Notes under the pieces: model-generated
Database searches by the model: none
The model's input: the letters and a program-made list of their open reading frames with translations, nothing else
Told to the model about the DNA's origin: nothing
Part shown: piece by piece, positions 23,591-43,927 of the stretch
How positions within the stretch are numbered: the stretch's first letter is position 1
How the letters are laid out: each line of letters starts with the position of its first letter
Virus record (IMG/VR): IMGVR_UViG_3300021961_005366
Span: 1-44,106 of that record
Reading direction: 5' to 3' (one strand)
DNA from: a virus
DNA: 44,106 nt
Program-made: the position numbers and the translations under genes

Positions 23591-23619
23591 AAAAAGCCAC
23601 TTGCAAGAGTGGCTTTTTT
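23591..23619 (+). terminator. Rho-independent terminator after the structural gene run
   Basis: An 11-base perfect stem, AAAAAGCCACT paired with AGTGGCTTTTT (23608-23618), has a TGCAAG loop (23602-23607) and a T run. It lies 24 bases after the stop of the 309-residue gene and marks the boundary between the virion module and the modification island. Confidence 0.92.
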
Positions 23620-23629: not shown

Positions 23630-23635
23630 AGTAAC

Positions 23636-23944
23636 ATGACAGAAGAACTAGTAAATCAAGTAAAACAAGCAACAGATTACCAAAAGAACAAGCAAGCTCT
23701 TCGCGAGAAGATTGTAGCAGAGCTACACATGCCTTTTGAAGGAGGATTGTTTTATCTAACTCCATCAACTATGGCATTTGTTGAAACATGGCCTAATGAA
23801 AATCTGTTCCTAGAAGATGTTTACGGCAATCCTATTCCAATTGATCGACAGAAGTTTATGAATCTTGCTCGTGAACGTTATCATGCTGTAATGAATGATT
23901 GGCATGTAAAACATCAGGAACTTAAAAGTGTCAGAAAAGTCTAG
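23636..23944 (+). CDS. Hypothetical protein (102 aa), first gene of the island
   Basis: An earlier in-frame ATG at 23588 lies before the terminator stem and would translate the hairpin, so the ATG at 23636 (MTEELVNQVKQATDYQKNKQ) is preferred. No Shine-Dalgarno is present just upstream, in line with the possible leaderless promoter. The protein has a helical N-terminal part and a compact second half (GGLFYLTPSTMAFVETWPNE, then YGNPIPIDRQKFMNLARERY). I do not recognise the family. Its end overlaps the start of the first glycosyltransferase-like gene by 17 bases. Confidence 0.65.
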   Translation: MTEELVNQVKQATDYQKNKQALREKIVAELHMPFEGGLFYLTPSTMAFVETWPNENLFLEDVYGNPIPIDRQKFMNLARERYHAVMNDWHVKHQELKSVRKV

Positions 23945-24662
23945 AGGTGTATTAATATTTGCTACAAACACCAGTGACGTTGACTATGTTAAGATTGCTG
24001 AAACAAATGCAGAACTAGTTAAACAGTACATGGGTTTGCCAACAACTATTGTCCAAGGAACTCAAGGGCAAAACAAGCGTTTAGTAAGTGGTGCGGTAAC
24101 TGAATGGCATAACGGAGGCAGATGCAATGCCTACGAATTATCGCCTTATGACGAAACATTGGTATTGGATGGTGACTATCTAGTATTTGACGATAATTTG
24201 CTTAAAGTGCTTGACACTGTTGAGGACTATGCTATACCACACAAGCACATCTATATTAACGAACAAGCAAATGATACCATGGGAACATATGCAGTTGGAC
24301 CAATGCTGTGGGCTACTGTAATAGCGTTTAAACGCACCAATAAAGCCCGTATGCTGTTTGAAGTTGCTAGTATGATACAAAACAACTATGCCTACTACAG
24401 GGCGTTATACAAGCTACAAAGCAGTATTTTTCGTAATGATGCAACGTTTACGATTGCAGATAGGATTGTTAATGGCTATTCGGAAAACATGAGCTGTCGT
24501 GTGCCTTGGCCTATTATGACCATAAGTGGCGAAATTGATAGAATGGTGGTTGACAAACAGCGTATTATAGTGTATAAAAAAGAACGTGCATATGTATTAC
24601 CACGTGCTAATCTACATCTACACGACAAACGATATTTGCAGAACGGATTTGAGTATGCGTAA
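23928..24662 (+). CDS. Glycosyltransferase-like protein (244 aa), GT-A type with DGD
   Basis: The start is GTG with AGGA 8 bases upstream, inside the end of the previous gene. The N-terminus (RGVLIFATNTSDVDYVKIAE) is the usual Rossmann-like first strand. ETLVLDGDYLVFDD gives a DxD-type metal and nucleotide-sugar site at D81-G82-D83. Length and layout suit a small GT-A nucleotide-sugar transferase. It is paralogous to the next gene: SPYDETLVLDGDYLVFDD aligns with TPFKETIKLEADLLFTRS. The sugar and acceptor cannot be told. No membrane segment or signal is seen, so it should act in the cytoplasm of the infected cell. Confidence 0.6.
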   Translation: MSEKSRGVLIFATNTSDVDYVKIAETNAELVKQYMGLPTTIVQGTQGQNKRLVSGAVTEWHNGGRCNAYELSPYDETLVLDGDYLVFDDNLLKVLDTVEDYAIPHKHIYINEQANDTMGTYAVGPMLWATVIAFKRTNKARMLFEVASMIQNNYAYYRALYKLQSSIFRNDATFTIADRIVNGYSENMSCRVPWPIMTISGEIDRMVVDKQRIIVYKKERAYVLPRANLHLHDKRYLQNGFEYA

Positions 24663-25509
24663 ACAACCACATCAAGCACAACGTGGGTTTTTGACCATTG
24701 CACAAAACAGTGATGTGAATTATATTGAGCTGGCCTACTTACAAGGACTAAATATTAAAGCAACTCAGCCCAACAGTTTGTATGCTGTTATAGTTGATAA
24801 GTTGACCCATTCACAGATAACTCAAGATCAACACCGTGTGTTCGATTATGTTATTACCCTCGATATTGATAGTGCTAGTAAAGACAAATGGAAACTTGCC
24901 AATGAATGGCAGACCTTTTATCTAACACCTTTCAAAGAAACTATCAAGCTCGAAGCAGATTTGCTTTTCACTCGCAGTATCAAACACTGGTGGAGAGCTC
25001 TACAACTGCAAGATGTAGTACTAAGTCACGGAGTAGTTGATTACCAGCAAAAGCCCAGCACCAGTAGACACTATCGCAAACTGTTTGATAATAACAGTTT
25101 GCCCGATGTTTATAATGGTATGATGTATTTTAGATATAGTGCATTCTCTACAAAGTTTTTCCAACTAGCACAACAGGTTTTTGAAAACTGGGATTCAATT
25201 AGAGATAGAGCTCTACACAATGTACGTGACGACAAGCCAACTACAGACGTAGTTTATGCAATCGTTTGTGCAATGATGGAACGTCCTTGTTATATTCCCT
25301 CACTGGACTTTTTCAAGTTTGCACACATGAAACCTGCAATACAAGGATGGGCAGACAACGTTGACATTTATAAAACTGTGCATGTTGAAAACAACTTAGC
25401 TGATTTGCGAATTAACAATGTACAACAATTATATCCTGTGCATTATCATGATAAAACATTTAAAGTTAAGGAATTGATAAAAGAATATGAACAAGAACTC
25501 TACAGTTGA
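24655..25509 (+). CDS. Glycosyltransferase-like protein (284 aa), paralogue with ExD in place of DxD
   Basis: An upstream in-frame ATG (24586) would add 23 residues translated from inside the previous gene. The ATG at 24655 overlaps the previous stop by 8 bases and gives an N-terminus (QRGFLTIAQNSDVNYIELAY) that matches its neighbour, so it is preferred. The DxD site of the neighbour is replaced by E100-A101-D102. The C-terminal half has DVYNGMMYFRYSAFSTKFF and KPTTDVVYAIVCAMM, which look like the acceptor-side half of GT-A enzymes. Either a functional ExD variant or a partner of the upstream protein is possible. Confidence 0.6.
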   Translation: MRKQPHQAQRGFLTIAQNSDVNYIELAYLQGLNIKATQPNSLYAVIVDKLTHSQITQDQHRVFDYVITLDIDSASKDKWKLANEWQTFYLTPFKETIKLEADLLFTRSIKHWWRALQLQDVVLSHGVVDYQQKPSTSRHYRKLFDNNSLPDVYNGMMYFRYSAFSTKFFQLAQQVFENWDSIRDRALHNVRDDKPTTDVVYAIVCAMMERPCYIPSLDFFKFAHMKPAIQGWADNVDIYKTVHVENNLADLRINNVQQLYPVHYHDKTFKVKELIKEYEQELYS

Positions 25510-25786
25510 ATACAGATTATACTACGACGAAACTGGCAGAGTTACTTGTATGACCAATGAACATTTGCCTGGAAACTATATTCGTATTAATAAGGAAATA
25601 TATGATCGTGCAAGCTACAGGTCATTGCGTGTGATCAATGGCAAACTAACACGAATAACCAAAGACACGGACGATTTTATGCTCGAACGTAGAAAAAACG
25701 GATATACTAGTGTAAAAGGACATGCTAGTATTTTAACAAATTCAACAAATCTGGAGACTCAAACATATGGCTTCAAATATCACTGA
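25487..25786 (+). CDS. Hypothetical protein (99 aa)
   Basis: ATG overlaps the end of the previous gene by 23 bases. The sequence begins with a beta-rich part (EYRLYYDETGRVTCMTNEHL, then GNYIRINKEIYD) and a short basic stretch. Small proteins of this flavour accompany glycosyltransferase genes in marine T4-like phages, as I recall, but no function is known to me. It overlaps the next gene by 20 bases. The single Cys and lack of a leader/core layout argue against a radical SAM precursor peptide. Confidence 0.6.
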   Translation: MNKNSTVEYRLYYDETGRVTCMTNEHLPGNYIRINKEIYDRASYRSLRVINGKLTRITKDTDDFMLERRKNGYTSVKGHASILTNSTNLETQTYGFKYH

Positions 25787-26684
25787 TGTCGCTGATTTAG
25801 ATTGCATCTATCTCAGTTATGACGAACCTCAGAAGGAAGAGTTTTGGATTAAGATACAGAACCTAGTACCTTGGGCCAAGCGTGTGGACAATGTCAAAGG
25901 TAGTGATGCCGCACACAAAGCCGCAGGCGATGCTAGCGACACAGACTTCTTTGTGTTAATTGACGGTGATAATTTGCCCGATGCAGAGTTCTTTAACCTG
26001 CAGATTGAAACGCCTGATCACGATTGTGCGTTTCGATGGAAAGCTCGCAATCACATTAACGGGCTTATGTACGGTAATGGTGGTATGAGTGTTTGGAGTA
26101 AAGGATTTGTGGACAATATGCGTACTCACGAAGCAAGTGATGGGAGTGACGAAACAAGCGTTGAGTTTTGTTTCGAGGAAACATATTACCCCATGCACAA
26201 CTGCTACAGCACAACGTACCCTAACGGAGACCAATATCATGCCTGGCGGGCAGGGTTCCGAGAGGGGGTTAAAATGTGCCTGGATCGAGGACGCAAGCCG
26301 AGTCTGCAAGAGTTCAATGATGCCGCAAAAAAGCGCAACCTTGATCACTTGCAGATTTGGCAAACCATTGGTCGTGACGTAGAGCACGGCGAGTATGCAA
26401 TTTGGGGAGCAAGATATGGCACATACAAAACCATGCTCACAGATTGGAATCACACAGAAGTGCAGGACTTTGATTTGCTCAAAGGCATCTATGATGAGTT
26501 TTTAAAAGATGTAGACAATATTGCGGAGTACACTGAACTGCTCAACAACAGACTTGGGCTTAATATTATTGAACTTGACGACAAACAAAGTGCGTTTTTC
26601 AAGTATCATTATAGCACTGGGCATAAGAACCTAGAACTAATGACTAAAGAGATTGACGTTATTAGACGTATTGAAGGCTGGTAA
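25767..26684 (+). CDS. Glycosyltransferase-like protein (305 aa) with intact DGD, relative of the 868-aa repeat protein
   Basis: ATG with GGAG about 11 bases upstream. LDCIYLSYDEPQKEEFW (residues 11-27) is the first strand and helix, and FFVLIDGDNLPDAEFF holds D66-G67-D68, a canonical DxD-type site. Downstream landmarks are FRWKARNHINGLMYGNGGM (about 89-107), DQYHAWRAGFREGVKM and DVEHGEYAIWGARYGTYK. The last three also occur, in order, in the C-terminal 225 residues of the protein encoded at 41321, so the two are paralogues; only this one keeps the DxD. It probably transfers a sugar using a nucleotide-sugar donor; the acceptor is unknown. The next gene starts 3 bases after its stop. Confidence 0.65.
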   Translation: MASNITDVADLDCIYLSYDEPQKEEFWIKIQNLVPWAKRVDNVKGSDAAHKAAGDASDTDFFVLIDGDNLPDAEFFNLQIETPDHDCAFRWKARNHINGLMYGNGGMSVWSKGFVDNMRTHEASDGSDETSVEFCFEETYYPMHNCYSTTYPNGDQYHAWRAGFREGVKMCLDRGRKPSLQEFNDAAKKRNLDHLQIWQTIGRDVEHGEYAIWGARYGTYKTMLTDWNHTEVQDFDLLKGIYDEFLKDVDNIAEYTELLNNRLGLNIIELDDKQSAFFKYHYSTGHKNLELMTKEIDVIRRIEGW

Positions 26685-26687
26685 TTT

Positions 26688-26990
26688 TTGATAGATAAGG
26701 AAAACATTATAGCAAATCTTAAACAAGTATATGATCCTGAAATAAGTGTTAATGTATATGATCTCGGATTAATATACAATATAGATGTTGACGAAGAGGA
26801 AAAGCAAGTTACTATAACACATACTTTAACTAGTGCATTTTGTCCTTTTGCTGATCAAATTGTTTCAGATATTCAACAGGCAGGTTATGTACCTGAAGTT
26901 AAAACGGTTGTGATTGATACAACATTTGATCCACCATTCTCAGTAGAGATGGTACCCGAAGAAACACGTATGATGTTGGGATGGTATTAA
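26688..26990 (+). CDS. SufT/MIP18-family (DUF59) Fe-S cluster assembly protein (100 aa)
   Basis: The start is TTG; no ATG lies near the N-terminus and the upstream ribosome site is weak. The sequence shows the family hallmarks: KQVYDPEISVNVYDLGLIYN (residues 12-31), a beta strand VTITHTLTS, and the conserved cysteine in AFCPFADQI (C52). Length is normal for a stand-alone domain. Family members help mature Fe-S proteins. Its stop overlaps the first radical SAM start (TAATG), and six radical SAM genes follow, so a role in loading or repairing their Fe-S clusters is the natural inference. The gene looks somewhat more AT-rich by eye than its upstream neighbour. Confidence 0.85.
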   Translation: MIDKENIIANLKQVYDPEISVNVYDLGLIYNIDVDEEEKQVTITHTLTSAFCPFADQIVSDIQQAGYVPEVKTVVIDTTFDPPFSVEMVPEETRMMLGWY

Positions 26991-28396
26991 TGAACAAAGG
27001 CGATGAATCAGTAGGCAACAAAAGCAAGTTTATGTTTAACGCTGAATGGATGAAAGAGAACCTCGGCGAAGGACTCTGCTTGGCTAAATGGAAGCAGGTT
27101 AGTTTACATTTACCTACAGGGCTAAACAACAGTTGCTATCACCCACCTCTACATCAAATTGATGCTGAAGCAGTTAAAAAGAATCCATCAGCATTACACA
27201 ATACGGATCATAAAAAAGAACAGCGTAAAGTAATGCTCAAACACGAACGTCCGCCAGAGTGTCAGTACTGTTGGAATATTGAAGACACAGGCAACCTAAG
27301 TGATCGTCACTATCGCAGTGGGGAACCTTGGGCCGCTAGTGATTACGACACGATTGTCAACAGTACAGGCAACGAAGATTGGATGCCCAGTTATGTTGAA
27401 GTAAACTTTAATCATGCGTGTAACCTACAGTGTAGTTATTGCTCGCCACAGTTTAGCTCAACATGGATGAAAGAAATTAAAAAGTATGGAGCATATCCTA
27501 CCAGTACGCCGCACAATGCGCCAGAACATTTTACAGGTCGTAGACGTCCTATTCCGCATCGTGAACACAATCCTTATGTGGATGCGTTTTGGGAATGGTG
27601 GCCTGAACTATATCCGCACCTAAAACATTTTCGTATGACAGGTGGCGAACCATTAATGGACAACAACACCTATCGTGTGTTTGACTATGTGCTGGCACTG
27701 CCTAATCCAGAGCTACATCTAAACGTAACATCAAACTTTAGTGTAGAGCCAAAGCTATTTGAAAAATACATAGACTATGTAAGGCGTTTGTGCAGAACAC
27801 AAATTGAACACTTTATGCAGTATGTAAGTTTGGACACAGGAGAACCCAAACATGCAGAATACATTCGCAACGGACTAAACTACAATCGCATGGCACACAA
27901 TGTGGTGCGTTATCTAAGTGAAGTACCAGAGCGTAACAGTTTAACATTTATTATTACAATGAACAACCTCAGTGTTCCGGGTCTTAAACGTTTGTTGGCT
28001 TGGATACTAGAACTTAGACGTGTACACAGTAGAACCTATCAGCGTATTTGGTTTGATACTCCTCTACTGCGTCAACCCCATTGGCAGAGCTTACAGATAC
28101 TGCCTTGGCCCTATGCGGAAAAGCTAGAAGACATTGCAGATTGGATGGAACAAAATCTAGAAACAGAAGACGATCCGTTCCACGGGTTTAAGGACTATGA
28201 AGTACAGCGTCTACGACGTGATATTGCATGGATGCGTAAAGGCAAAGAACTAGGCGAGGATTATTTGCACAAGCAACGTGCAGACTTTTATCGATTCTTC
28301 AATGAACATGACCGTCGTCGTAAAACTAACTTCTTAGAAACTTTTCCTGAGATGGAAGAGTTTTGGAAAGAATGTAGGTATCATGCTCAAAGATAA
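26990..28396 (+). CDS. Radical SAM protein, type A (468 aa)
   Basis: ATG at 26990 overlaps the previous stop (TAATG) with GGGA 8 bases upstream; the in-frame ATG at 26981 is less likely. The radical SAM CX3CX2C motif is C144-C148-C151 (CNLQCSYC), followed by QFSSTWMKE and TGGEP at 217-221, which binds SAM. Four cysteines before the core (C30, C49, C91, C94; CYHPPLH and CQYCW) probably hold an auxiliary cluster in an N-terminal twitch-like domain. The C-terminal FFNEHDRRRKTNFLETFPEM is shared with the gene at 29467. The family is N-terminal twitch radical SAM; substrate unknown. Confidence 0.85.
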   Translation: MNKGDESVGNKSKFMFNAEWMKENLGEGLCLAKWKQVSLHLPTGLNNSCYHPPLHQIDAEAVKKNPSALHNTDHKKEQRKVMLKHERPPECQYCWNIEDTGNLSDRHYRSGEPWAASDYDTIVNSTGNEDWMPSYVEVNFNHACNLQCSYCSPQFSSTWMKEIKKYGAYPTSTPHNAPEHFTGRRRPIPHREHNPYVDAFWEWWPELYPHLKHFRMTGGEPLMDNNTYRVFDYVLALPNPELHLNVTSNFSVEPKLFEKYIDYVRRLCRTQIEHFMQYVSLDTGEPKHAEYIRNGLNYNRMAHNVVRYLSEVPERNSLTFIITMNNLSVPGLKRLLAWILELRRVHSRTYQRIWFDTPLLRQPHWQSLQILPWPYAEKLEDIADWMEQNLETEDDPFHGFKDYEVQRLRRDIAWMRKGKELGEDYLHKQRADFYRFFNEHDRRRKTNFLETFPEMEEFWKECRYHAQR

Positions 28397-29474
28397 CGAT
28401 AAATTTTGTGTGCGTCCGTTTATGCATAGTCTAGTAGACACCCAAGGGCGTTTTATGCCTTGTTGTCGTAGTTTTGTACAAACAGATTTTAATATGAAAA
28501 CACACTCTGTTGACGAATGGTGGAATAGCGATTATCTCAATGATCTAAGAAAGCGTATAAAGAACAATGAACATAGTGATGAATGTGTTCGTTGTTATAA
28601 ACAAGAGGAGCAAGGATCAAAAAGTTTTCGACAGTACAGCAACGAACGCTGGAGTGATATAACAGAACAAACAGAACAACCAATAGATTGGGAAATACAG
28701 TTATCAAATTTATGTAACTTGAAATGTTTGATGTGTAATCCACAGTCTAGTAGCCAATTTTTAGTTGAAGAAAACAAACTGTTTGACAAGGTATGGGATC
28801 AGAAGAAATACGATTGGGATGAAAAAGACAATTACAAGATACTTGAAATAATGGAACATAGCGATAGTTTTATTCTAAGAGGTGGAGAACCTTTTATGTT
28901 GCCTTGGGTTCGTGATATTCTTTCATCGTTAACACAACGTAAAGAAATAATGATTGCAACAAATGGAACTAAATTTGATCAAAGTTGGGTTGATGTATTA
29001 TCAGCACACGATATTAAAATGTGTTTAAGTATTGATGGATATGCAGAACTCAATCATTACATCAGATATCCAAGTAAATGGAATGTTATAACTAATAATA
29101 TAGAGTTGATGCGTCAAATACCTAATGCTAACATTTTTGTAAACACAGTGGTACAAAATTTAAATGTATTACACATTGATAGATTATTAGAATGGGCTAA
29201 ACAGGAAGAACTTTTTGTGCAGTTCGATATACTAACAAAACCTCATTACCTAGCGCCTGTGTGCTTGCCAAAAGAATTAGCTCAACTTGCACAAGACAGA
29301 CTTCGTGCTGTTGATTACGAAGCACAAAATGGTTTAGAAGGAATTATTAATACATTGGATAACGCCAATGACGAAGATTGGAATGAATTTGTAGATATGA
29401 TTACTATTAGAGATAGACATCGTGGCATAAAGATAGTAAACTATGTGTCCGAAATGGAGGAACACTTTGCCTAA
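28383..29474 (+). CDS. Radical SAM protein, type B (363 aa), N-terminal twitch/SPASM-like domain
   Basis: The ATG overlaps the previous gene by 14 bases. The N-terminal domain reads like a SPASM/twitch unit placed before the core: C9, then G..MPCC (C27, C28), a DEWWNSDYLNDLR helix, then C68-x2-C71. The radical SAM motif is C111-C115-C118 (CNLKCLMC), followed by SSSQF, and RGGEP spans 166-170. ATNGT and LSIDG are the usual later core strands. It is the shortest of the six and appears more AT-rich than its neighbours by eye, which may reflect a separate origin. Substrate unknown. Confidence 0.85.
   Translation: MLKDNDKFCVRPFMHSLVDTQGRFMPCCRSFVQTDFNMKTHSVDEWWNSDYLNDLRKRIKNNEHSDECVRCYKQEEQGSKSFRQYSNERWSDITEQTEQPIDWEIQLSNLCNLKCLMCNPQSSSQFLVEENKLFDKVWDQKKYDWDEKDNYKILEIMEHSDSFILRGGEPFMLPWVRDILSSLTQRKEIMIATNGTKFDQSWVDVLSAHDIKMCLSIDGYAELNHYIRYPSKWNVITNNIELMRQIPNANIFVNTVVQNLNVLHIDRLLEWAKQEELFVQFDILTKPHYLAPVCLPKELAQLAQDRLRAVDYEAQNGLEGIINTLDNANDEDWNEFVDMITIRDRHRGIKIVNYVSEMEEHFA
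29456..29460 (+). promoter_or_regulatory. Shine-Dalgarno GGAGG that selects a TTG start
   Basis: GGAGG lies 6 bases before TTG at 29467. The in-frame ATG at 29443 has no such site and sits upstream of it, so the TTG is the better start for the third radical SAM gene of this array. Confidence 0.75.
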
Positions 29475-30825
29475 GTTAGTCAATGAAACAGATTTAGAAT
29501 TTAGACAGCGTGTACTAGATACTAAAAGCTCTAGCTTCTGTGGTGCGAAATGGTACAACGCTACTATTTGGTTAGGCTCAGGAATGACTACAAGTTGTCA
29601 CCATCCGCCTGCACACAAAGTAAATGTTGAAGAAGTACGATTCAATCCCAAAGCACTGCACAACTCTGCACAAAAGAAACAAGACCGAGCACAGATGCAG
29701 GCAGGTGAGCGTCCTCCCGGTTGTGAATACTGCTGGAAGATTGAAGACATTGGACGCAACAACATCAGTGACCGTACCTATAAAAGTGTTATCTACAGTG
29801 ACGAACTATTACAAACAGCATTTGAAACAGACCCTAACGAGGACATTGATCTACGCACACTAGAGATTGCGTTTGATAGAACCTGTCAGTTTGCGTGTAG
29901 TTATTGTAACCCAGCGTTTTCAAGCACCTGGGTCAAGGATCTTAAAAAGCATGGCCCGTATACAGAACTACAAAGCGATGGACGCAATCACTTTACACAC
30001 CCACATAAAGAAGCTCAACTCTATCGCTATGACGAAACCAATCCTTATGTAGAAGCGTTCTTTCGTTGGTGGGATAGTGATCTACATCGAACACTGCAAG
30101 AGCTACGCATCACAGGAGGCGAGCCCTTAATGAGCGGACATACCTGGGATCTGTTGGATTGGTTCAAAAACAATCCAGGACGCAGTCAGACACGACTTGC
30201 TATCAACAGCAATCTTGGCTTTGAATCAGACAAAGTAGAAAGACTGCTAGAAGCCACAGACTATTTGGAAATTGATTTATATACCAGCAACGAAAGTATG
30301 GGTCCACACGCTGAATATATTCGTGATGGTCTAAAGTGGGAACAGTGGACCGCAAACATGGACTTGTTAATCCGCAGTGGCAAACTACGTGGGTTACATG
30401 TAATGAACACTATCAACGCATTGTGTTTAGAAAGTTTGCCAGAGTTTTTAACTTGGATGCTGGAAAAGAAAAGTAGTTTTGGCAGGGACTTTCCTAACTT
30501 TACACTAAACATTTTACGTTTTCCTAGTTTTCAAAGTGCATTAGTATTGCCAGATGAAATACGAACCAAACACAAACAGCGTTTAGAAGATTGGAGTAAC
30601 ACATATCAAAATCATGTAATGTTACACGAACATGAGCGTAATCATGTACAAAGACTTATTGATTACTTGGATGTAGTAAAGACTCCTCATAGCGAAACAT
30701 CATTTGAACGTCCTAAACTACACAACGACTTTAAACGTTTTTACTCGCAGTATGACCAACGCCGAGGCAAAAACTTTACAGAAACATTTCCTAATTTAGC
30801 AGAGTGGTATAATGACCTTGGATAA
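29467..30825 (+). CDS. Radical SAM protein, type A (452 aa)
   Basis: TTG start chosen because of GGAGG 6 bases upstream; it overlaps the previous gene by 8 bases. It is paralogous to the gene at 26990: matching N-terminal cysteines C25, C44, C86, C89 (CHHPPAH, CEYCW), radical SAM motif C140-C144-C147 (CQFACSYC), AFSSTWVKD, TGGEP at 216-220, a NPYVEAFFRWW segment, and the tail FYSQYDQRRGKNFTETFPNL. The two type A proteins lack the PCC signature of type B, so their auxiliary cluster is arranged differently. Both are followed by a type B gene, which suggests A-B pairs act together. Confidence 0.85.
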   Translation: MPKLVNETDLEFRQRVLDTKSSSFCGAKWYNATIWLGSGMTTSCHHPPAHKVNVEEVRFNPKALHNSAQKKQDRAQMQAGERPPGCEYCWKIEDIGRNNISDRTYKSVIYSDELLQTAFETDPNEDIDLRTLEIAFDRTCQFACSYCNPAFSSTWVKDLKKHGPYTELQSDGRNHFTHPHKEAQLYRYDETNPYVEAFFRWWDSDLHRTLQELRITGGEPLMSGHTWDLLDWFKNNPGRSQTRLAINSNLGFESDKVERLLEATDYLEIDLYTSNESMGPHAEYIRDGLKWEQWTANMDLLIRSGKLRGLHVMNTINALCLESLPEFLTWMLEKKSSFGRDFPNFTLNILRFPSFQSALVLPDEIRTKHKQRLEDWSNTYQNHVMLHEHERNHVQRLIDYLDVVKTPHSETSFERPKLHNDFKRFYSQYDQRRGKNFTETFPNLAEWYNDLG

Positions 30826-35128: not shown

Positions 35129-35286
35129 TAGATTATCTATTATTAATTTTATTAACCGTGTTTATTGTTGTTCTTTTTATAATAGGATACAAAACAGCAA
35201 GACAAAAAGATCACGACTTATTAAAAAAATATGGCAGTTTTGATAAAGTGCCGACGGAAGAACGAGGAGAATCTCCTTACATATGA
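35125..35286 (+). CDS. Small single-pass membrane protein (53 aa)
   Basis: This short frame starts with ATGA over the stop of the last radical SAM gene and ends with ATGA over the next start, so it fills the gap exactly. Residues 4-21 (YLLLILLTVFIVVLFIIG) form a clear transmembrane helix, followed by a charged tail (YKTARQKDHDLLKKYGSFDK). A signal-anchor with the tail in the cytoplasm is likely by the positive-inside rule. The function is unknown; the context suggests anchoring or regulating an island protein at the membrane. Confidence 0.7.
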   Translation: MIDYLLLILLTVFIVVLFIIGYKTARQKDHDLLKKYGSFDKVPTEERGESPYI

Positions 35287-35492
35287 GTGGGCAAAGACAA
35301 TTTTTAAAAATGTGGGCTAGGGTTGTTGGTATGCCAATTGGTATTACTGATGACGATAAACCTGAATTCTTGCCCATATCACAGCGCAGTGTTAAACATG
35401 CCTTGCTTTTACGATCTTTTTGGATAGCATTACATGTAATAACCTGCTTGATGATTATACTAGGTAACGGCCGTAATATGGGATGGTGGTAA
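35283..35492 (+). CDS. Small membrane protein (69 aa)
   Basis: ATG overlaps the stop of the 53-residue gene (ATGA). An amphipathic N-terminal part (FLKMWARVVGMPIGITDDDK, then PEFLPISQRSVKHALLLRS) precedes a C-terminal membrane helix, FWIALHVITCLMIILGNG (about 46-63). The sequence resembles a small conserved protein of marine T4-like phages as far as I recall; no function is known. Its stop overlaps the next ATG (TAATG) with GGGATGG just upstream, so the three genes from 35125 are tightly coupled. Confidence 0.7.
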   Translation: MSGQRQFLKMWARVVGMPIGITDDDKPEFLPISQRSVKHALLLRSFWIALHVITCLMIILGNGRNMGWW

Positions 35493-36562: not shown

Positions 36563-37520
36563 TTTTATCTACGGTAATGAACTAAGCGACATGCGCTATA
36601 CAGGTTCTCCTAGTCGTTTGACTTATCCGGCACTATTAAGTCGAGGACATGAATATTATTGTGTAGCCACAGGCGGTGCAAGCAATCAAGCAATAACAAG
36701 AACCACAATGGATGCTTGCAGAACATATCAGCCAGACTTTGTGTTTGTGCAATGGACATTTCCTAATAGATATGAGTTTAGATTTGACTTCTATACAGGG
36801 CAAAAAAAGTCTCCGTGGTATGACATTAACGCATGGGCAATCAAAGACATTGACAAATTACATGAAATAGAACAAGAGTTTCATACACAAAACGACGGCA
36901 TTTTACAAACACAGATCAATACAATTAAGAAGGATATTGCCAGTGGTGTTAGTGACTTTGCCAAAGTCTATTACAAATACATTGCTATTAACGAATATTG
37001 GGAAGTGTATTCTACACTCAAAGAAATAGTATTATTACAAAATTACTTAAAAGCACACAATATTGGTTATCTCTTTACTACCGCTGATAACTGTATCTTA
37101 AATAATTGGACCATAGAAACAAATACACAAAAACGTAGAACCAGTACACCTCTGGGATTTCAACCTTGGCCAATCAACGACGAAGACGTAAAACTAGACG
37201 ACACCATACTAACACTCTACGAAGAAATAGACTTTGATAAGTTTTGGTGGTTCCCTGTGCCCAGTCCCTATACAAACAAAAATCAACGCCCTGAATGGTG
37301 GCCCAAAGGATACGGGTCTTGGGACAATGAGCGCAACACATGGGTAGAAGAAGATGGTAGCGAACCCGTTATTGACGAAGACCTACAACCAAGAGGTTTT
37401 TACCAGTGGGCAGTTGAAAATAAATATCCAGTAGGCACCACGCATCCATTAGATGAAGCGCATGCCGCGGCCGCTGAATTATTACGGGAGACATTCAATG
37501 TTCATAGTAAGATGGTTTAA
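36537..37520 (+). CDS. SGNH/GDSL-type hydrolase (327 aa)
   Basis: ATG overlaps the previous gene by 26 bases. Block I is IVANGCSFIYGNEL with S9 as likely nucleophile, block II VATGGASNQAI (about 43-53), block III region PDFVFVQWTFPNR (about 67-79), and near the end THPLDEAHAAAAELL supplies a DxxH-like Asp/His pair. It is about twice the size of the hydrolase at 33340, with a long insert (about 90-290) that includes a Trp/Pro-rich stretch, FWWFPVPSPYTN. A deacylase or deacetylase acting on glycan or a modified metabolite is the usual family role. The next tiny gene starts inside its end. Confidence 0.75.
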   Translation: MIIVANGCSFIYGNELSDMRYTGSPSRLTYPALLSRGHEYYCVATGGASNQAITRTTMDACRTYQPDFVFVQWTFPNRYEFRFDFYTGQKKSPWYDINAWAIKDIDKLHEIEQEFHTQNDGILQTQINTIKKDIASGVSDFAKVYYKYIAINEYWEVYSTLKEIVLLQNYLKAHNIGYLFTTADNCILNNWTIETNTQKRRTSTPLGFQPWPINDEDVKLDDTILTLYEEIDFDKFWWFPVPSPYTNKNQRPEWWPKGYGSWDNERNTWVEEDGSEPVIDEDLQPRGFYQWAVENKYPVGTTHPLDEAHAAAAELLRETFNVHSKMV

Positions 37521-37608: not shown

Positions 37609-37624
37609 TGTTAGGTGAGTATTA

Positions 37625-39109
37625 GTGAGCATACTAGGAATATCAGCAGGGTTTCATGATTCGGCAATCTCTGTTGTTGATCAATCAGGAACGATTACAT
37701 TTGCAAGTCACAGCGAACGCTATAGCAGACAAAAAAACGACGCCAATCTCTGTAGAGAATTACTCAGCGAAGTAGACTTCGCTGACATTGATACCATTGC
37801 TTATTACGAACGACCTTTTAAAAAACAACTTAGACAGTTATATGCCGGACAAGGTTTTAAGTTTGATCAACTATTTGTACGACAGTTATTAAAACAGCAT
37901 GGTGTTCCTTTTTCTTGCCGTACTAAAATCAAATGTTATGATCATCATCTAAGTCATGTTGCCGCAGGATTTCAAACTTCACCGTTTACGGATGCAACTG
38001 TTGTAGTAATTGATGCCATTGGAGAATTTACTACAGCAAGTATTTGGAAGGCAAATTATAACGCCGATGGTAAAGTCGTTTATGAATGTTTGTGGAAGCA
38101 AGGCTATCCTCACAGTTTAGGATTGTTTTATAGTGCATTTACTAAACACATTGGTTTGCATCCTCTTGATGAAGAATATATTTTAATGGGCATGGCGGCG
38201 TGGGGCGAAAACAAACACTTTGATAAAATCTATAACGATCATGTTGATAACATCAGCGAGTTTAGATTTAAAAAGAATCTACACGCTGGATTAGATGAGG
38301 ACTATCTGATTGAAGCACTGGATGTTGACATTGCGGCTAGTGTGCAAGCAATCACAGAACACATGGTGCATAGACTGGTTAATAAAGCACGTCATATGCA
38401 CTGGAGTCGCAACCTAGTATTAATGGGCGGTGTTGCACTTAACTGTGTAGCAAACAGCAAACTCAATGACGACTATCAAAACATTTGGATTATGCCCAAC
38501 CCAGGCGATGCAGGTTCTAGCTTAGGTGCCGCGGCCCTAGCATACGGCAAGCGATTAAACTGGCAAGGTCCAATGTTGGGTTACAACATACCAGGTGCGT
38601 ATCCTGTTAACAGAATTATTGAAGCACTGTTGGAAAAACAGATCGTTGGTGTAGCAAGCGGGTCAGCAGAGTTTGGTCCACGTGCGCTAGGGCATCGCAG
38701 TTTGCTGGCAGACCCAAGAGGTCCAGACATCAAAGACCGTGTAAATGAAATTAAACGTAGGCAGAAGTTTAGACCTTTTGCGCCAATGATTTTAGCTGAG
38801 CAAGTAGAACAATATTTTGATATGCCAAAAAGCTGGCAAGAATCACCTTATATGCAAAGCGTTGGAGTTTGTCGAGACCCAGATCAGTTTCCAGCAATTT
38901 GTCATGTAGATAAAACCAGTCGAGTACAAACAGTAGGAAAAGAACCACAGTTTGCTGGAGTGCGTGAACTACTCGAAAAGTGGTTTGTGCTAACAGGTTG
39001 TCCTATGTTGCTAAACACAAGTCTAAACATACGAGGAGAACCAATGGTTAATACTCGCAATGATGCAGATCGTTTTGAAGACCAATATGGAGTAGAAGTA
39101 GTATCATGA
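37625..39109 (+). CDS. Carbamoyltransferase, NodU/CmcH family (494 aa)
   Basis: GTG start (MSILGISAGFHDSAISVVDQ) with an AGGTGAG about 7 bases upstream. The N-terminal domain has the ASKHA-type fold with HHLSHVAAGF (H107, H108, H111 as metal/catalytic histidines) and VVVIDAIGEFTTA. MGGVALNCVANSKLN and NPGDAGSSLGAAALAYG are family signatures. The C-terminal YrdC-like part has SAEFGPRALGHRSLLADPR and LNTSLNIRGEPMV. Family members move carbamoyl from carbamoyl phosphate, via carbamoyl-AMP, onto a hydroxyl of a sugar or antibiotic. All key segments look intact, so it is probably active. It links the island to O-carbamoylation of a glycan or small molecule. Confidence 0.92.
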   Translation: MSILGISAGFHDSAISVVDQSGTITFASHSERYSRQKNDANLCRELLSEVDFADIDTIAYYERPFKKQLRQLYAGQGFKFDQLFVRQLLKQHGVPFSCRTKIKCYDHHLSHVAAGFQTSPFTDATVVVIDAIGEFTTASIWKANYNADGKVVYECLWKQGYPHSLGLFYSAFTKHIGLHPLDEEYILMGMAAWGENKHFDKIYNDHVDNISEFRFKKNLHAGLDEDYLIEALDVDIAASVQAITEHMVHRLVNKARHMHWSRNLVLMGGVALNCVANSKLNDDYQNIWIMPNPGDAGSSLGAAALAYGKRLNWQGPMLGYNIPGAYPVNRIIEALLEKQIVGVASGSAEFGPRALGHRSLLADPRGPDIKDRVNEIKRRQKFRPFAPMILAEQVEQYFDMPKSWQESPYMQSVGVCRDPDQFPAICHVDKTSRVQTVGKEPQFAGVRELLEKWFVLTGCPMLLNTSLNIRGEPMVNTRNDADRFEDQYGVEVVS

Positions 39110-39528
39110 AAATAAAAGATTGGAGTAGACCTACAGCATTATTTTTAGGAAGGTTTCAACCCTGGCATAGTGGACATCGTGCTATTGTAGACCAGATTTT
39201 TTATAAAAATGATTTGACAACGCCTACAGAACGCAGAACTAATCGCGCCAGTCAATTGGTTATTATGGTGCGTAGTCCCAGCGCAACGGATCCGCACACA
39301 TTTGAACAAATAAAAGAAATGATTGTTAATGATATCAATCTTGCATATCCTCACGCTTATGAAGTAATGGAAGTGCCTAATATCACTAATATATTCTTTG
39401 GGCGCAGTATTGGGTTTGAAATGGAAAGAATATATCTAAGTGATGATCTTGAACCAGTAGAAAATACCACAACTACTCGTGTAGAAAAACAACATTTTAA
39501 TAAAGATTTTTGGGCAGGCAGACAATAA
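39106..39528 (+). CDS. Small nucleotidyltransferase, NMNAT/cytidylyltransferase-like (140 aa)
   Basis: ATG overlaps the previous stop (ATGA). LFLGRFQPWHSGHRAIVDQI contains the HxGH motif (H21-S22-G23-H24) of the nucleotidylyltransferase superfamily. SQLVIMVRSPSA is the following strand. The C-terminal ISSTxxR-like signature is represented by TTTTRVEKQ (about 125-133). The protein is shorter than a full NMN adenylyltransferase. It may make an activated sugar, polyol or NAD-like intermediate; an NDP-sugar or CDP-linked precursor for the glycosyltransferases would fit the context but is inference. Confidence 0.8.
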   Translation: MKIKDWSRPTALFLGRFQPWHSGHRAIVDQIFYKNDLTTPTERRTNRASQLVIMVRSPSATDPHTFEQIKEMIVNDINLAYPHAYEVMEVPNITNIFFGRSIGFEMERIYLSDDLEPVENTTTTRVEKQHFNKDFWAGRQ

Positions 39529-40028
39529 TGGCAAAACTTAAATTAATACACTATCCAGATCCTATACTAGATAAACCTCTTGACCCAGTTGACATCAACG
39601 ACCCTAAATTTGATCCAGTAGAAGTCAAACGTCAAATGGTTGAGTTAATGATAACAGAAAAAGGAATAGGACTCAGTGCAAATCAAGTTGGATTAACAAA
39701 AACATTTTTTGTTATAGGCGAAGACCCAGCGTCTGCAACTATGTGTATTAATCCTAAGTTTAGTGCAGACGCAACTGACATGGTTGAGGACTACGAAGGT
39801 TGTTTGAGCTTTCCAGGTGTGTATGTAAAGATTAAACGTCCACGTAAGATTACAGCAGAATTTTACAACGAAAAACTAGAACTGATTACTAGCGAATTAA
39901 CCAATTACACTGCACGTTGCTACATGCACGAACTAGATCATTTGTTAGGCATTACAATGCGGGACCGTGTTAGCAAACTACGTTGGGATATGGCTGTAAA
40001 GAAAGCACGTAAAGCACTTAAAAGATGA
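39528..40028 (+). CDS. def: Peptide deformylase (166 aa)
   Basis: The ATG at 39528 overlaps the previous stop (TAATG) and is preferred to an upstream TTG at 39510. All three signature motifs are intact: GIGLSANQ (46-53, usually GxGLAAxQ, here Ser for the first Ala), EGCLS (90-94) with the metal-binding C92, and HELDH (134-138) with both metal-binding histidines and the catalytic glutamate. It removes the formyl group from new polypeptides. Phage versions are common in marine phages and are often thought to favour rapid turnover of host or phage proteins. Normal length for a phage enzyme. Confidence 0.95.
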   Translation: MAKLKLIHYPDPILDKPLDPVDINDPKFDPVEVKRQMVELMITEKGIGLSANQVGLTKTFFVIGEDPASATMCINPKFSADATDMVEDYEGCLSFPGVYVKIKRPRKITAEFYNEKLELITSELTNYTARCYMHELDHLLGITMRDRVSKLRWDMAVKKARKALKR

Positions 40029-40243
40029 AACTAGATCTACATGGCTATACAGTACATGATGCTTGGCAAAAGTATCAGGACTTTATTAGCCATGTGGATG
40101 CAAAAAGCGTAGTAGTTGTTACCGGGCAAGGACAAATAGAACAAGAGTTTTTGCGTTGGAATCATCCTTCACGAGTTAGAGAAATACAAAAGCTACCCAG
40201 TCGCGGAGCATTTAGAATAATGTTTTACAAATCACGAAGCTGA
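40025..40243 (+). CDS. Smr (small MutS-related) domain protein (72 aa)
   Basis: ATG overlaps the deformylase stop (ATGA). LDLHGYTVHDAW (3-14) is the Smr LDLHG motif, VVVVTGQGQ (29-37) is the TGxG loop (usually THGKG or TGKG), and GAFRIMFY is the closing strand. It is a minimal stand-alone domain. Smr domains cut or bind branched DNA or RNA; in bacteria some rescue stalled ribosomes by cleaving mRNA. Its 3' end overlaps, tail to tail, the minus-strand glycosyltransferase-like gene by 19 bases. Confidence 0.85.
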   Translation: MKLDLHGYTVHDAWQKYQDFISHVDAKSVVVVTGQGQIEQEFLRWNHPSRVREIQKLPSRGAFRIMFYKSRS

Positions 40244-41322
40244 TGCTCAAGTTCGTTCCATGCACTATCTAAAAATCCTGTGCTTTCAAACCACCGACGA
40301 TTATGAAGAAGAACCTCTGACATTTCGTTTAACATGGTCTCTAATTCTTCATTGGATCGCATGCACAAATTAGCAACAACGTTGTTTACTGCCAGTAAGC
40401 GTTTAACAGGATCCTCAATTTGATCGTAGCTTTCATCCCACCAACGATCAAAAGTTAAAAAGCCATAGCTTTTTAGATAAGCAAGATTGTGTGCTGGACC
40501 TAGAAGCACAAAAGGCATCATACTAACAATTGGTTTAAAAATCTTTTCTGTTAAATGACATTTGCGTGTCCAGTATTCAGTTTCCGTTACTACAAACAAA
40601 AACGATTCCATACATTGATCAATCGCACCAAGATTCATACTTCCGTTTGGTATGTGTTCATGTTCGTCTGTGTCTATACGCAATTCTGTAATCTCAGCAT
40701 CTTCTAGTGCTTTTATTACCCAATCAATATCAATTTGGTATTGATCTTTCGCCCAATATAATTGTTGAACGTTACTGCCGTGAACAGGGCAATTAGAACT
40801 ATAACTAACGTGTCCAAAATCTAATAGATTACGTCTAGCTAAATCAGCAACATGTAGTGTTCTATAACTACGGGCATTACCTGTTATTCGGTTAAATGAA
40901 ATAAATTTTTTGTTGACTTTTCGCTCATCTGGTTTTATAATAGCAGGAACATAACGGTAACCACGAAACCAGTCATGAGCGGCAAAAATATGAAAAAAGT
41001 AGTAAACATCAATAAGGTTGTATTTTTCCAAGAAGTAGTTTTTAGCGTCGCTGTTCTGTTCAGTGTTAAGTAATAATACACGGTTATGTTCGTTGTGAAC
41101 AAAACGATCAAACACCCAATCAAAGATAGGTTCATTAAATCCTGGTATTAAAGGTTCTTGATCGTAACATAATAAAATAGGTCCGTTGTCGCCAGAATTG
41201 TGATATTCAATTTCTTCGACGGTGGTTCCGCCAAATGGAAAAAGGTATACTACTTTGACTTCGCCCCAAATGTTTTTAGCAAGCCTGAATATGTTTTCAT
41301 AATGAGAGTGAATATTATACAT
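40225..41322 (-). CDS. Glycosyltransferase-like protein (365 aa), minus strand
   Basis: The only long minus-strand gene in the window. Its ATG (41322-41320) shares two bases with the opposite-strand ATG at 41321. The C-terminal half has FLFVVTETEYWTRKCHLTEK followed by IFKPIVSMMPFVLLGPAHNL, then LKSYGFLTFDRWWDESYD (overall about 242-303). This resembles the donor-binding half of exostosin/fucosyltransferase-type GT-B enzymes, where E..FK..(M/I)PF..G..N...L...GF.TF...W.E.YD is a common pattern. The N-terminal half has LLCYDQEPL. No membrane segment. The sugar is unknown; the GT-B family placement is by pattern memory. Confidence 0.65.
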   Translation of the reverse strand: MYNIHSHYENIFRLAKNIWGEVKVVYLFPFGGTTVEEIEYHNSGDNGPILLCYDQEPLIPGFNEPIFDWVFDRFVHNEHNRVLLLNTEQNSDAKNYFLEKYNLIDVYYFFHIFAAHDWFRGYRYVPAIIKPDERKVNKKFISFNRITGNARSYRTLHVADLARRNLLDFGHVSYSSNCPVHGSNVQQLYWAKDQYQIDIDWVIKALEDAEITELRIDTDEHEHIPNGSMNLGAIDQCMESFLFVVTETEYWTRKCHLTEKIFKPIVSMMPFVLLGPAHNLAYLKSYGFLTFDRWWDESYDQIEDPVKRLLAVNNVVANLCMRSNEELETMLNEMSEVLLHNRRWFESTGFLDSAWNELEHQLRDL

Positions 41323-43927
41323 GTTTGATGTTTTCTATTATGGCCCTAAGCCTAACTTGTTTGATTTTGAACAGCATGCGAGTAGCTTAGACGAGGCTTT
41401 GTTAAAAAGTCGTACTCGGTACTGTTGGTATTTATTTGGTGGCAATGACTACACAGACTTTAATTTTGACGTGGTACCTGAACCTTGGATGGCTCGCTTT
41501 GTGCATGTATGGCCCAGCCAATGGCAACGTGATGGTGGGGTATATCTAGCATTTAAACGTGCAAAGGAACGTCAGTATCATTTTTGTTCTGACCAGTCAG
41601 TTGTACGCAAGCCTGATCTTGCACTGTGGCAGAACACTGCAAACGTTGAATCGTTTGATTATAGTTGGCATCCTGATCCACATGAACCTGATTATGAATA
41701 TCATTTCCCTACACAAAGACAAAATGCTGGCGGCCCAATATATCCAGGCACACAAGGTATTAAACTCTGTGACGCACAGATTGCGCGAGTAACTGTTGCT
41801 CGCGACAACTGGACTGTACCTGATTACATAGACGATACAACAGTTGACTGGGAGTGGCATCCTAACCCATTGGATCCTCCTTATATCTATCACTTTCCAA
41901 GTCAACATCAAAGCGCAAGTGGTGTAACATATACTGTACCTGGCGCAACTGATGTAAAGTTAGTTGACGATATGCAAGTAAAAGCCTTGCCGTCAACGAT
42001 AAATTGGGTAGTACCTGATGAAATTGATGAGTCTGCTATTGATTTTAGCTGGCATCCTAATGCACTAGAATCTCCATATGTTTATCACTTTCCCAGTGAA
42101 TGGCAGGCCAGTAGTGGATTGGAATATCACGCACCTCTTGCGACAGAAATCAAAATTGCAGAAGAATATCCCTATAAAGAAACTAGCACTTTAATAAGCA
42201 AGGTGCTAGATATCTTTTATGTAGACTACTTTAATGCCAGTAGCCCACAGCGTTGGAAGCGTATTGAAGAACGCTATCCAACAGCACAGAAAATACGCTA
42301 TGCCAACAGTCTATTAGAAACTGTTCGTCGTTGCTGTACACGTTCAACAACAGGACGCTTTTGGGTTATCAGCAGTGAATGCATCTATGATGACTTTGAT
42401 TTTAGTTGGCATCCTGAAAGTTGGCAACGCTATATGACTCATGTGTTTGGGTCGCAGTGGCAAAAGTGGAGTGACACATTTCTTATTAATCGTTCAGAGT
42501 TTGAACGCAACAGCAAATGGGCAAACTCTATTGAGGAGTTTCCAAACCTAAACTTTGTAAACAGTCAACCTGTGCTAGTACCAGATGATCTACACGACAT
42601 TGTGTATGTAGATTGGGGCAACCCAACAGATCAGTTTAGCAAACTAAAAGAACGCTATCCCAATATCACCAGCACACGATTTGTTAGCAACTACCTAGAT
42701 ACCTTTAAGCGCATCATTAACACACACGAAGGTCAGGAATACATATGGATAGTTAACAGTGTTTGTGACTATTCGCGGTTCGATTTTAGCTGGCAACCGG
42801 AGCCTTGGCAACGTGAAATGCTTCATATTTTCCCCTCAAATGCCCAGCGCAGAGGAGATACATTCTATGTACACGTTCCTGCATTTAAACAGCAAATGGA
42901 TTCACTTGAAATCCTAGACTGGTTTGATACTATCAACTATTGCTCAGAGCAACAGGTACAGCGTTTACCAATGCCCACACATACCTATCAAGGCGACAGT
43001 ATTGTAGAGGCTGTTAACGAATGGCGTTGGGGTACTTTCCCGTATGGCATGCTTGTACACGAACAAGCTAGCATAGATCTATCAGCATACGAAACACCCT
43101 GCTTGTGGCGAGCAAAGGATCGTGCTGTTGTTAGTTTAACTCACAACAACGACTCTGCACTAGTGCCACGTGACATACATGCTAGACAAGTTGAACAGGT
43201 ATACGACTATCCTTACATAGACAAAACACAGGTCCAAAACAAGCGTGACTTGGACATTGTGTTCATTAGTAATGGGGAGACAGACGCGGATCGTTGGTAC
43301 GAGCATTTGTGTGCTTGTGTAGACAATCCCCAGCGTGTGAAGCGCATAGACGGTGTAAACGGGCGTATAGCCGCATATCAAGCCGCGGCACGGGCTAGTT
43401 CCACTGATTGGTTCTTTGCAGTGTTTGCTAAAATAGAAGTTAATCCAGACTTTGATTGGTCTTGGCAGCCGGACTATTTCCAAGAAGCTAAACACTATAT
43501 CTTCTATGCTCGCAATCCAGTTAACGGATTAGAGTATGGTCACATGGGCGTTATTGCTTATAACAAACGTCTTACATTGGACACAAACGAAAGCGGGTTA
43601 GACTTTACACTATCAAGAGCGCACGAAGTTGTGCCTATCCTAAGCGGTACTGCACACTACAACGCAGATGCTTGGATGACTTGGCGCACCGCATTCCGTG
43701 AAACACTCAAACTAAGACAGTTCCTGGATGACAAACCCAGCATTGAAACCGAAGGACGTTTACGTGCTTGGCTACACAAAGGTGCTGATGTTGAAAATGG
43801 CGAATGGAGTATACGTGGAGCGCAGGATGCTGTATCGTTCTATAAAAGCGTAGATGGTGATCCTGCGGAGTTACAAAAGAGCTTTGATTGGCCTTGGCTT
43901 AGAGATCTTTTCGAAACAAATCAGTAA
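41321..43927 (+). CDS. Repeat protein (868 aa) built from degenerate glycosyltransferase-like modules
   Basis: The motif (F/V/I)-D/N-F/Y/W-S/E-W-H/Q-P...H-x-F-P-S-x-x-Q recurs seven times, at residues about 47-70, 112-136, 175-199, 240-264, 359-382, 487-510 and 711-734. Units 5-7 have a preceding first strand (LDIFYVDYF at 296, HDIVYVDWG at 425, LDIVFISNG at 644) like a GT-A domain, and unit 1 begins FDVFYYG. The last 225 residues match the 305-residue protein at 25767: YARNPVNGLEYG, WMTWRTAFRETLKL and ADVENGEWSIRGAQ. The DxD of that protein is missing in every module here. A middle stretch (540-630) is unrelated. It is probably non-catalytic: a scaffold, sugar-binding or decoy protein. The start overlaps the opposite-strand start. 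The third SGNH gene overlaps its end. Confidence 0.75.
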   Translation: MFDVFYYGPKPNLFDFEQHASSLDEALLKSRTRYCWYLFGGNDYTDFNFDVVPEPWMARFVHVWPSQWQRDGGVYLAFKRAKERQYHFCSDQSVVRKPDLALWQNTANVESFDYSWHPDPHEPDYEYHFPTQRQNAGGPIYPGTQGIKLCDAQIARVTVARDNWTVPDYIDDTTVDWEWHPNPLDPPYIYHFPSQHQSASGVTYTVPGATDVKLVDDMQVKALPSTINWVVPDEIDESAIDFSWHPNALESPYVYHFPSEWQASSGLEYHAPLATEIKIAEEYPYKETSTLISKVLDIFYVDYFNASSPQRWKRIEERYPTAQKIRYANSLLETVRRCCTRSTTGRFWVISSECIYDDFDFSWHPESWQRYMTHVFGSQWQKWSDTFLINRSEFERNSKWANSIEEFPNLNFVNSQPVLVPDDLHDIVYVDWGNPTDQFSKLKERYPNITSTRFVSNYLDTFKRIINTHEGQEYIWIVNSVCDYSRFDFSWQPEPWQREMLHIFPSNAQRRGDTFYVHVPAFKQQMDSLEILDWFDTINYCSEQQVQRLPMPTHTYQGDSIVEAVNEWRWGTFPYGMLVHEQASIDLSAYETPCLWRAKDRAVVSLTHNNDSALVPRDIHARQVEQVYDYPYIDKTQVQNKRDLDIVFISNGETDADRWYEHLCACVDNPQRVKRIDGVNGRIAAYQAAARASSTDWFFAVFAKIEVNPDFDWSWQPDYFQEAKHYIFYARNPVNGLEYGHMGVIAYNKRLTLDTNESGLDFTLSRAHEVVPILSGTAHYNADAWMTWRTAFRETLKLRQFLDDKPSIETEGRLRAWLHKGADVENGEWSIRGAQDAVSFYKSVDGDPAELQKSFDWPWLRDLFETNQ
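41654..42115 (+). repeat. Three tandem short WHP repeats within the 868-aa gene
   Basis: Residues 112-265 hold three units with a 63-65 residue period. The cores are FDYSWHPDPHEPDYEYHFPT, VDWEWHPNPLDPPYIYHFPS and IDFSWHPNALESPYVYHFPS, each followed by Q..Q.A.G..Y and a KL/KI strand, with VPD.IDD/DES linkers between. The units are diverged at the DNA level, so the duplication is not recent. Confidence 0.85.

Follow-up and report, generated by a model that had tools for sequence, protein, structure and literature searches.

The window analysed here, the 44,106-base virus record IMGVR_UViG_3300021961_005366 taken as a whole, encodes behind its fibre genes an ordered enzyme module whose core runs f6-o118-GTa-GTb-GTc-r1-r3-r4-r5-r6-o359-CT. 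In this core f6 is a fibre-type virion protein, GTa, GTb and GTc are glycosyltransferase (GT)-like, the r genes belong to the radical S-adenosylmethionine (rSAM) enzymes, CT is a predicted O-carbamoyltransferase, and o118 and o359 are conserved proteins. Because the core is kept in order across dozens of diverse phages, we regard it as one working module, not loose cargo. We tentatively propose that this translationally coupled module builds and tailors a glycan, for which f6 would be the most likely acceptor.

Co-occurrence was counted at r4-anchored loci with enough flank on non-redundant phage contigs. All loci carried r1 and r3 (30/30 each) and r5, r6 and o359 (29/29 each), nearly all carried GTc (29/30), CT (28/29), GTa and GTb (28/30 each), and the order was the same; o118 was present at 27/30, with 32/33 also given for anchored loci. 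A first-pass annotation, made from the letters without database searches, had proposed a single multi-step system and had named independent presence and absence in relatives as the pattern that would speak against it. That comparison was run, and the proposal withstood it: the core genes co-occur (27–30 of 29–30), whereas r2, the HxGH protein and sgA, which the proposal had included, fall outside the core, as do FeS_assembly_P, the peptide deformylase and the Smr-like open reading frame (ORF), each at 0 to 11 loci (Table 1). When f6 served as the anchor, the best 80 of at least 600 stretches gave 53 distinct loci with flank, where o118-GTa-GTb-GTc followed f6 in 53/53 and an rSAM gene was present in 52/53; the rSAM set behind r1 varies in this sample. 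Median identity to the window is 58–74% for the rSAM proteins, GTc and CT, compared with 41–45% for f5 and f6. Pairwise distances correlate at r 0.73–0.80 between GTc, r6 and CT, but only at 0.16–0.33 among the pairs tested for r1, r3, r4 and r5, which indicates recombination inside the module. Most adjacent genes overlap by 4–32 bases, as expected for coupled translation.

The six rSAM genes of the first-pass annotation were all recovered in place. Their products score 279–389 bits against the N_Twi_rSAM model (NF033640), over its curated cut-off of 170 bits, and this model lies far above every peptide-maturase model; none of 14 control genomes passed the cut-off. Each protein has the CxxxCxxC and GGEP motifs together with N-terminal cysteines of the twitch/SPASM type, and the Pfam SPASM domain is matched in 4/6. 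The best conserved enzyme is r6, with 213 columns at ≥95%. The r2 gene is exchanged, being 36% identical in the closest relative and ~96% identical in more distant ones. The sole solved-structure match of the r4 profile was the twitch domain of BtrN. Phage contigs carry 5–16 N_Twi_rSAM genes, yet we found no characterised member of the family, nor the phrase ‘twitch domain-containing radical SAM’ in the phage literature searched.

CT matches both carbamoyltransferase domains (Carbam_trans_C, E 1.8e-49; Carbam_trans_N, E 2.9e-43) and phrog_1601 (E 2.5e-97), contains the HHLSH and GPRALG motifs, and aligns with the antibiotic-carbamoylating enzymes decarbamoylnovobiocin carbamoyltransferase, GdmN and TobZ, so that its assignment to the NodU/TobZ-type family, read from the letters alone as NodU/CmcH, is certain on sequence grounds; it is single-copy in 9/9 large contigs. 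The four GT-like genes that had been noticed resolve into one predicted GT-A-fold transferase, GTc, and three motif-level candidates, GTa, GTb and GTd. The AlphaFold2 model of GTc (predicted local distance difference test, pLDDT, 86) matched B4GALNT1, WrtF and the PBCV-1 capsid GT by VIA (Z 9.7, 9.1 and 8.2, respectively) and found Foldseek matches with prob up to 1.0 and E 2e-3, consistent with a GT-A fold plus DxD motif, a fold that nucleotidyltransferases share. A decayed GT array had also been reported, and GTe indeed has six degenerate WHP/WQP-type repeats and a segment (residues 636-835) that matches GTc at E 4e-12. The true start of GTb is probably near 24655.

The f6 proteins are Ser/Thr-rich (median 28%), and their hidden Markov model (HMM) matches gp360 of Pseudomonas phage PA5oct (E 3e-29), the record of which carries a note of detection by electrospray ionization tandem mass spectrometry (ESI-MS/MS); Pfam, PHROGs and solved structures gave nothing usable for f6. 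By hydropathy, no core protein reaches the membrane-segment level, r6 possibly excepted. We favour f6 as the acceptor because of the detected PA5oct homologue, the Ser/Thr-rich composition, the GT linkage at 53/53 loci and the scarcely membrane-type core, and between virion, host surface and diffusible compound the f6 linkage leans towards the virion. Under this proposal GTa, GTb and GTc would transfer sugars, with fold support for GTc only; r1, r3, r4, r5 and r6 would oxidise, epimerise, deoxygenate or C-modify sugars on a precursor or on the chain; CT, judging from its family, would add O-carbamoyl groups; and sgB, where present, may remove or transfer ester groups. The glycan would most likely be placed on f6, given the strict linkage, the lack of a recognised exporter in the core and the virion detection of the distant homologue, and a decorated fibre could then alter adsorption or shield the particle. 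Glycan or glycoconjugate tailoring is suggested by the family content, namely transferases, a carbamoyltransferase, an esterase-like protein and twitch-type rSAM enzymes, to which the BtrN match and the cellular neighbours of r6 and r4 add modest independent support.

Among 50,697 public phage records searched by tblastn we found no GTb, GTc, GTd or o359 and no close rSAM orthologues; r1 and r4 had distant matches only, and there were many carbamoyltransferases below 60% identity. Cellular r6 orthologues (36–51% identity, E <1e-60) are present in 9 of 291 genomes from the phylum of a Bacteriovoracaceae record, assigned to Bdellovibrionota by record name, and in 0/299 and 0/296 genomes from the phyla to which a Nitratireductor and a Reichenbachiella record belong, respectively. 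They often adjoin genes of the r5, r3, r4 or r1 type, and Bacteriovoracaceae bacterium UBA6144 (L189 6040-18036) has a run of eight rSAM genes from the r1, r3, r4, r5 and r6 groups, ordered r3-r6-r5-r4-r5, then r1-r3 and r1, on a chromosome-type contig with flanking genes that we read as obg and ribosomal protein genes. Some cellular copies have sugar-related neighbours: r6 lies between GlmU-type and GlmS-type genes in one genome (L277 7245-11830), in another it has GDSL, NTP-transferase and GT2 genes nearby, and r4 is near a carbamoyltransferase gene in two Bdellovibrionia genomes (L186/L190). In a tree with r4/r5 outgroups, phage r6 formed one group (100/100) that branches among cellular r6, with several weak joins and long branches meeting, and transfer of r6 from cell to phage appears likely. 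Contigs L177-L181, L209, L244 and L247 were rejected as host evidence, as they carry phage module genes; we take them for phage contigs that ended up in metagenome-assembled genomes by binning.

Related rSAM genes also occur in other settings. A Bdellovibrionia genome (L281, L282) has more than 12 N_Twi-like rSAM genes, interspersed with one for an aspartyl/asparaginyl hydroxylase, within ~35 kb, and Bdellovibrionales GWA1_52_35 (L233 826-4496) shows the unusual combination of an r1-type rSAM gene after ABC-transporter-like genes and a PqqD/S74 endosialidase-chaperone protein. Vibrio phage K566 (L175) has six N_Twi-like rSAM matches, of which two pass the cut-off, in the neighbourhood of a PagP-like gene and unannotated proteins. 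The single-cell contig Marine virus AG-345-D19 (MH319727) carries, side by side, two sgB-like genes, a carbamoyltransferase gene 47% identical to CT and an r5-like rSAM gene.

A parallel cassette is present in Agrobacterium phage Atu_ph07 and Sinorhizobium phage Phosso (L443 18424-26073 and L444 17668-25817), unannotated in Atu_ph07. The upstream order is that of the window (baseplate wedge, giant structural protein, f1 and an f5-type fibre), and behind it lie several rSAM genes that, unlike r1-r6, score below the N_Twi cut-off and are interleaved with genes for proteins of 296–306 and 259–263 amino acids (aa); one further product reads as cupin- or oxygenase-like. The Atu_ph07 virion proteome includes a virion-protein cluster spanning coding sequences (CDS) 170-215 (PMC6102473), and by accession count from the baseplate genes CDS 170 may fall inside the rSAM cassette. 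From these comparisons, rSAM cassettes beside fibre genes have arisen or been swapped more than once, and their repeated occurrence suggests a virion-linked job for the rSAM enzymes. Both phages are cultured, which offers a bench system in which the question of whether fibre-linked rSAM enzymes modify virion proteins is testable now.

Several observations weigh against a glycan made for f6. PA5oct lacks the module yet encodes an f6-like protein, and the alignment behind the f6 search was made from module-bearing contigs, which biases that sample towards close relatives. HMM searches of the Atu_ph07/Phosso cassette detected neither GTa-e nor o359 nor CT homologues; the UBA6144 run likewise has no recognised GTa-e or CT homologue, and rSAM work therefore need not be glycan work. 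Most cellular rSAM neighbours are other rSAM genes or unrelated genes, and we claim no general, family-wide glycan link because a Pfam survey of 91 genes that share operons with cellular rSAM genes showed no glycan enrichment, with other rSAMs dominating. The BtrN match is weak and short; GTa, GTb and GTd, none of which reached a Pfam cut-off, are called glycosyltransferase-like from motifs and the weak GTa-GTb similarity, the GTa and GTd profiles finding no solved-structure match; and the SGNH calls for sgA and sgB are motif-based. We infer the acceptor as well as every reaction. The fuller version of our proposal, in which dedicated transferases make a fibre glycan that is remodelled by at least five N-twitch rSAM enzymes and an O-carbamoyltransferase, with r6 at least apparently derived from Bdellovibrionota-type bacteria, is less likely than not.

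The main rival, and a strong one, is remodelling of the host surface, in which the module would make or alter sugars that late in infection are carried by host machinery to lipopolysaccharide or capsule, so that neither progeny nor competitors could adsorb again. Such a role has been published for GT islands in pelagimyophages (PMC7029224) and jumbo phages (PMC7824862), cytosolic tailoring that feeds into host export would need no phage exporter, and Bdellovibrionota chromosomes hold related rSAM sets, in two cases near sugar-nucleotide-type genes. We nevertheless consider it somewhat unlikely, as the strict f6 linkage is not predicted by it and the core here is conserved while the fibre genes diverge, whereas the GT islands in those papers are variable.

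Less probable still is direct protein modification, with rSAM enzymes acting on the polypeptide, much as in ribosomally synthesised and post-translationally modified peptides, but on a fibre protein that the GTs also glycosylate. The SPASM matches and the Atu_ph07/Phosso cassette, which sits beside fibre genes without recognised GT or CT genes and may edge the virion-protein cluster, fit this. It is harder to reconcile with the margin of the N_Twi_rSAM model over all peptide-maturase models, with a module in which CT is near-universal, and with the lack of any conserved small precursor peptide other than o99, which is semi-conserved (22/30). To our knowledge, CT is not a peptide-maturation enzyme. 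A diffusible aminoglycoside-like or antibiotic-like molecule made during infection would suit the resemblance of CT to antibiotic carbamoyltransferases and the r4 match to BtrN, and a jumbo cyanophage carbamoyltransferase cluster has been interpreted as perhaps a secondary-metabolite system (PMC7824862), but Pfam family scans gave no exporter, resistance or scaffold-forming enzyme and the fibre-gene linkage would be left unexplained, making this very improbable. That the genes are unrelated cargo gathered in a plastic T4-like region suits r2, FeS_assembly_P, sgA, the HxGH protein, the deformylase and the Smr-like ORF, but is scarcely credible for the core, where it is contradicted by the conservation of both gene order and gene content in dozens of contigs and by contig G015, whose sole CT, relocated outside the main run to 204 kb, is still near rSAM genes at 198-200 kb.

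The first genes of the window encode a baseplate wedge protein of the gp6 type, the giant 4509-aa protein and f1. For the latter two, tblastn found homologues in the structural regions of Atu_ph07, Phosso, PA5oct and Cronobacter phage GAP32; f1 is further present in 60 records of cultured phages, of which all listed ones are jumbo-sized. On these grounds the window is a fragment of a T4-related jumbo myophage of the Rak2-related group that includes Atu_ph07 and Phosso. Atu_ph07 has been described as close to Rak2-like phages (PMC6102473). The PA5oct homologue of f1, gp357, is marked ESI-MS/MS in its record, and the contigs that bear relatives of the island reach 357 kb. The f5 HMM matches Atu_ph07, Phosso and PA5oct. 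Within the fibre block, N-terminal segments are common to f2, f4 and f5, and the C-termini of f2 and f5 are alike (62% over 177 aa); these three form a paralogous fibre family. Scans of the window gave no T4-type late promoter (TATAAATA), no Rfam match and no tRNA.

Of the three SGNH hydrolases first reported, we found two SGNH-like genes, sgA, which has no Pfam match, and sgB, with invariant residues G7, S9, G47, N50, H303 and H309; DUF6071 was matched by 4/17 sgB orthologues. The o359 model resembles cyclophilin-like folds by VIA (Z 8-8.7, rmsd 3.4, ~140 aa), middling values in the range of common arrangements, and Foldseek gave no match better than E 1; a cyclophilin-like core with a helical insertion is thus a fold lead. 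The HxGH nucleotidyltransferase gene is present as reported, but its 11 structure matches are all nicotinamide mononucleotide (NMN) adenylyltransferases or the related MJ0541, with no sugar or glycerol cytidylyltransferase among them, which points to NAD salvage rather than sugar nucleotides; this accessory protein is probably not part of the pathway. FeS_assembly_P, the peptide deformylase and the Smr-like ORF were missing from the earlier list. Between r6 and o359, a 53-codon ORF (35125-35286) with one strongly hydrophobic segment overlaps the r6 stop codon; such a membrane ORF is seldom kept at this position (7/125).

Table 1. Positions of genes in the window, with the basis for each assignment; fractions are r4-anchored loci unless marked.
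Feature	Position	Strand	Assignment	Basis
Baseplate wedge	117..1550	+	gp6-like protein, upstream landmark	phrog_10646 E 3e-113; Phosso homologue E 2e-67
Giant protein	1572..15101	+	virion structural protein, 4509 aa, upstream landmark	tblastn, best E 2e-85
f1	15098..15787	+	conserved small structural protein	60 cultured phage records
f2, f3, f4, f5	15799..22616	+	fibre block; f2 collagen-like	f2 in phrog tail-fibre families; f5 HMM
f6	22637..23566	+	fibre-type virion protein, candidate acceptor	HMM, linkage, composition
o118	23588..23944	+	conserved small protein	conserved in anchored loci
GTa	23928..24662	+	glycosyltransferase-like	invariant DxD, D81/D83
GTb	24586..25509	+	glycosyltransferase-like, related to GTa	blastp to GTa E 3e-4; conserved TIKLExD motif
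o99	25487..25786	+	semi-conserved small protein	22/30
GTc	25767..26684	+	predicted GT-A fold glycosyltransferase	invariant DGDN motif; predicted structure
FeS_assembly_P	26688..26990	+	DUF59/SufT-like, accessory	PF01883 E 4e-15; 3/30
r1	26981..28396	+	N_Twi_rSAM, core	NF033640 E 3e-95; 30/30
r2	28383..29474	+	N_Twi_rSAM, accessory, exchanged	NF033640 over cut-off; 7/30
r3	29443..30825	+	N_Twi_rSAM, core, r1 paralogue (34%)	NF033640 E 1e-92; 30/30
r4	30812..32146	+	N_Twi_rSAM, core	NF033640 E 3e-116; BtrN twitch match E 0.003
r5	32133..33347	+	N_Twi_rSAM, core	NF033640 E 3e-106; 29/29
sgA	33340..33843	+	SGNH-like, accessory	weak similarity to sgB, E 1e-3; 0/29
r6	33830..35128	+	N_Twi_rSAM, core	NF033640 E 4e-89; 29/29
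o359	35483..36562	+	core protein	29/29; AlphaFold2 pLDDT 91
sgB	36537..37520	+	SGNH/GDSL-like hydrolase, frequent	motif-based; 21/29
CT	37625..39109	+	NodU/TobZ-type O-carbamoyltransferase, core	Pfam, PHROG, motifs; 28/29
HxGH protein	39106..39528	+	NMN-adenylyltransferase-like, accessory	profile E 8e-9; 11/29
Peptide deformylase	39510..40028	+	rare cargo	PF01327 E 3e-38; 2/29
Smr-like ORF	40025..40243	+	rare cargo	1/29
GTd	40225..41322	-	glycosyltransferase-like, frequent	motif HLTEKIFKP..PF; 27/35 sgB-anchored loci
GTe	41321..43927	+	GT-like, degenerate repeats, GTc-like C-terminal part	33/35 sgB-anchored loci

Known systems resemble the module in part. BtrN, the 2-deoxy-scyllo-inosamine dehydrogenase of the butirosin pathway, oxidises an aminocyclitol (PMC9012708) and has a twitch-type auxiliary FeS domain as predicted for r4, but the matched part is C-terminal in BtrN (residues 183-257) and N-terminal in r4. 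TobZ, decarbamoylnovobiocin carbamoyltransferase and GdmN have both domains and the conserved motifs of CT, which is shorter (494 vs 576-702 aa). Jumbo cyanophages such as S-SSM6a likewise place a phage carbamoyltransferase in a multi-enzyme cluster for sugar or amino-acid tailoring (PMC7824862); that cluster includes a halogenase, 2-oxoglutarate (2OG) oxygenases and a HemK-like methylase, none of which appeared in Pfam scans of the island, and the word ‘radical’ is not used in its description (PMC7824862). In pelagimyophages and cyanomyophages, a host recognition cluster lies behind the baseplate among fibre genes and contains GTs, joined in some of the genomes by radical SAM cassettes (PMC7029224). 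The giant 4509-aa protein occupies the place of VrlC in pelagimyophages, a positional likeness only (PMC7029224), and of the cluster position, from a large baseplate gene to gp14, the upstream side is present here, the window ending before any gp14. The host recognition cluster is, however, hypervariable and nonsyntenic, with no carbamoyltransferase mentioned (PMC7029224), whereas the core described here is strictly ordered in dozens of jumbo phages. The first-pass annotation considered a multi-step phage system of this kind new; GT/rSAM cassettes in the fibre region of pelagimyophages (PMC7029224) and carbamoyltransferase clusters in jumbo cyanophages (PMC7824862) precede it in part. If the target is indeed the virion, phages would apply radical chemistry to their own adhesins, and the conserved order defines a minimal set (f6, GTa-c, r1, r3-r6, o359 and CT) with a testable acceptor in f6. 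What the window adds to these known systems is a strictly ordered module with an unusual rSAM load, which has relatives in the Bdellovibrionota and is nearly absent from public phage records.

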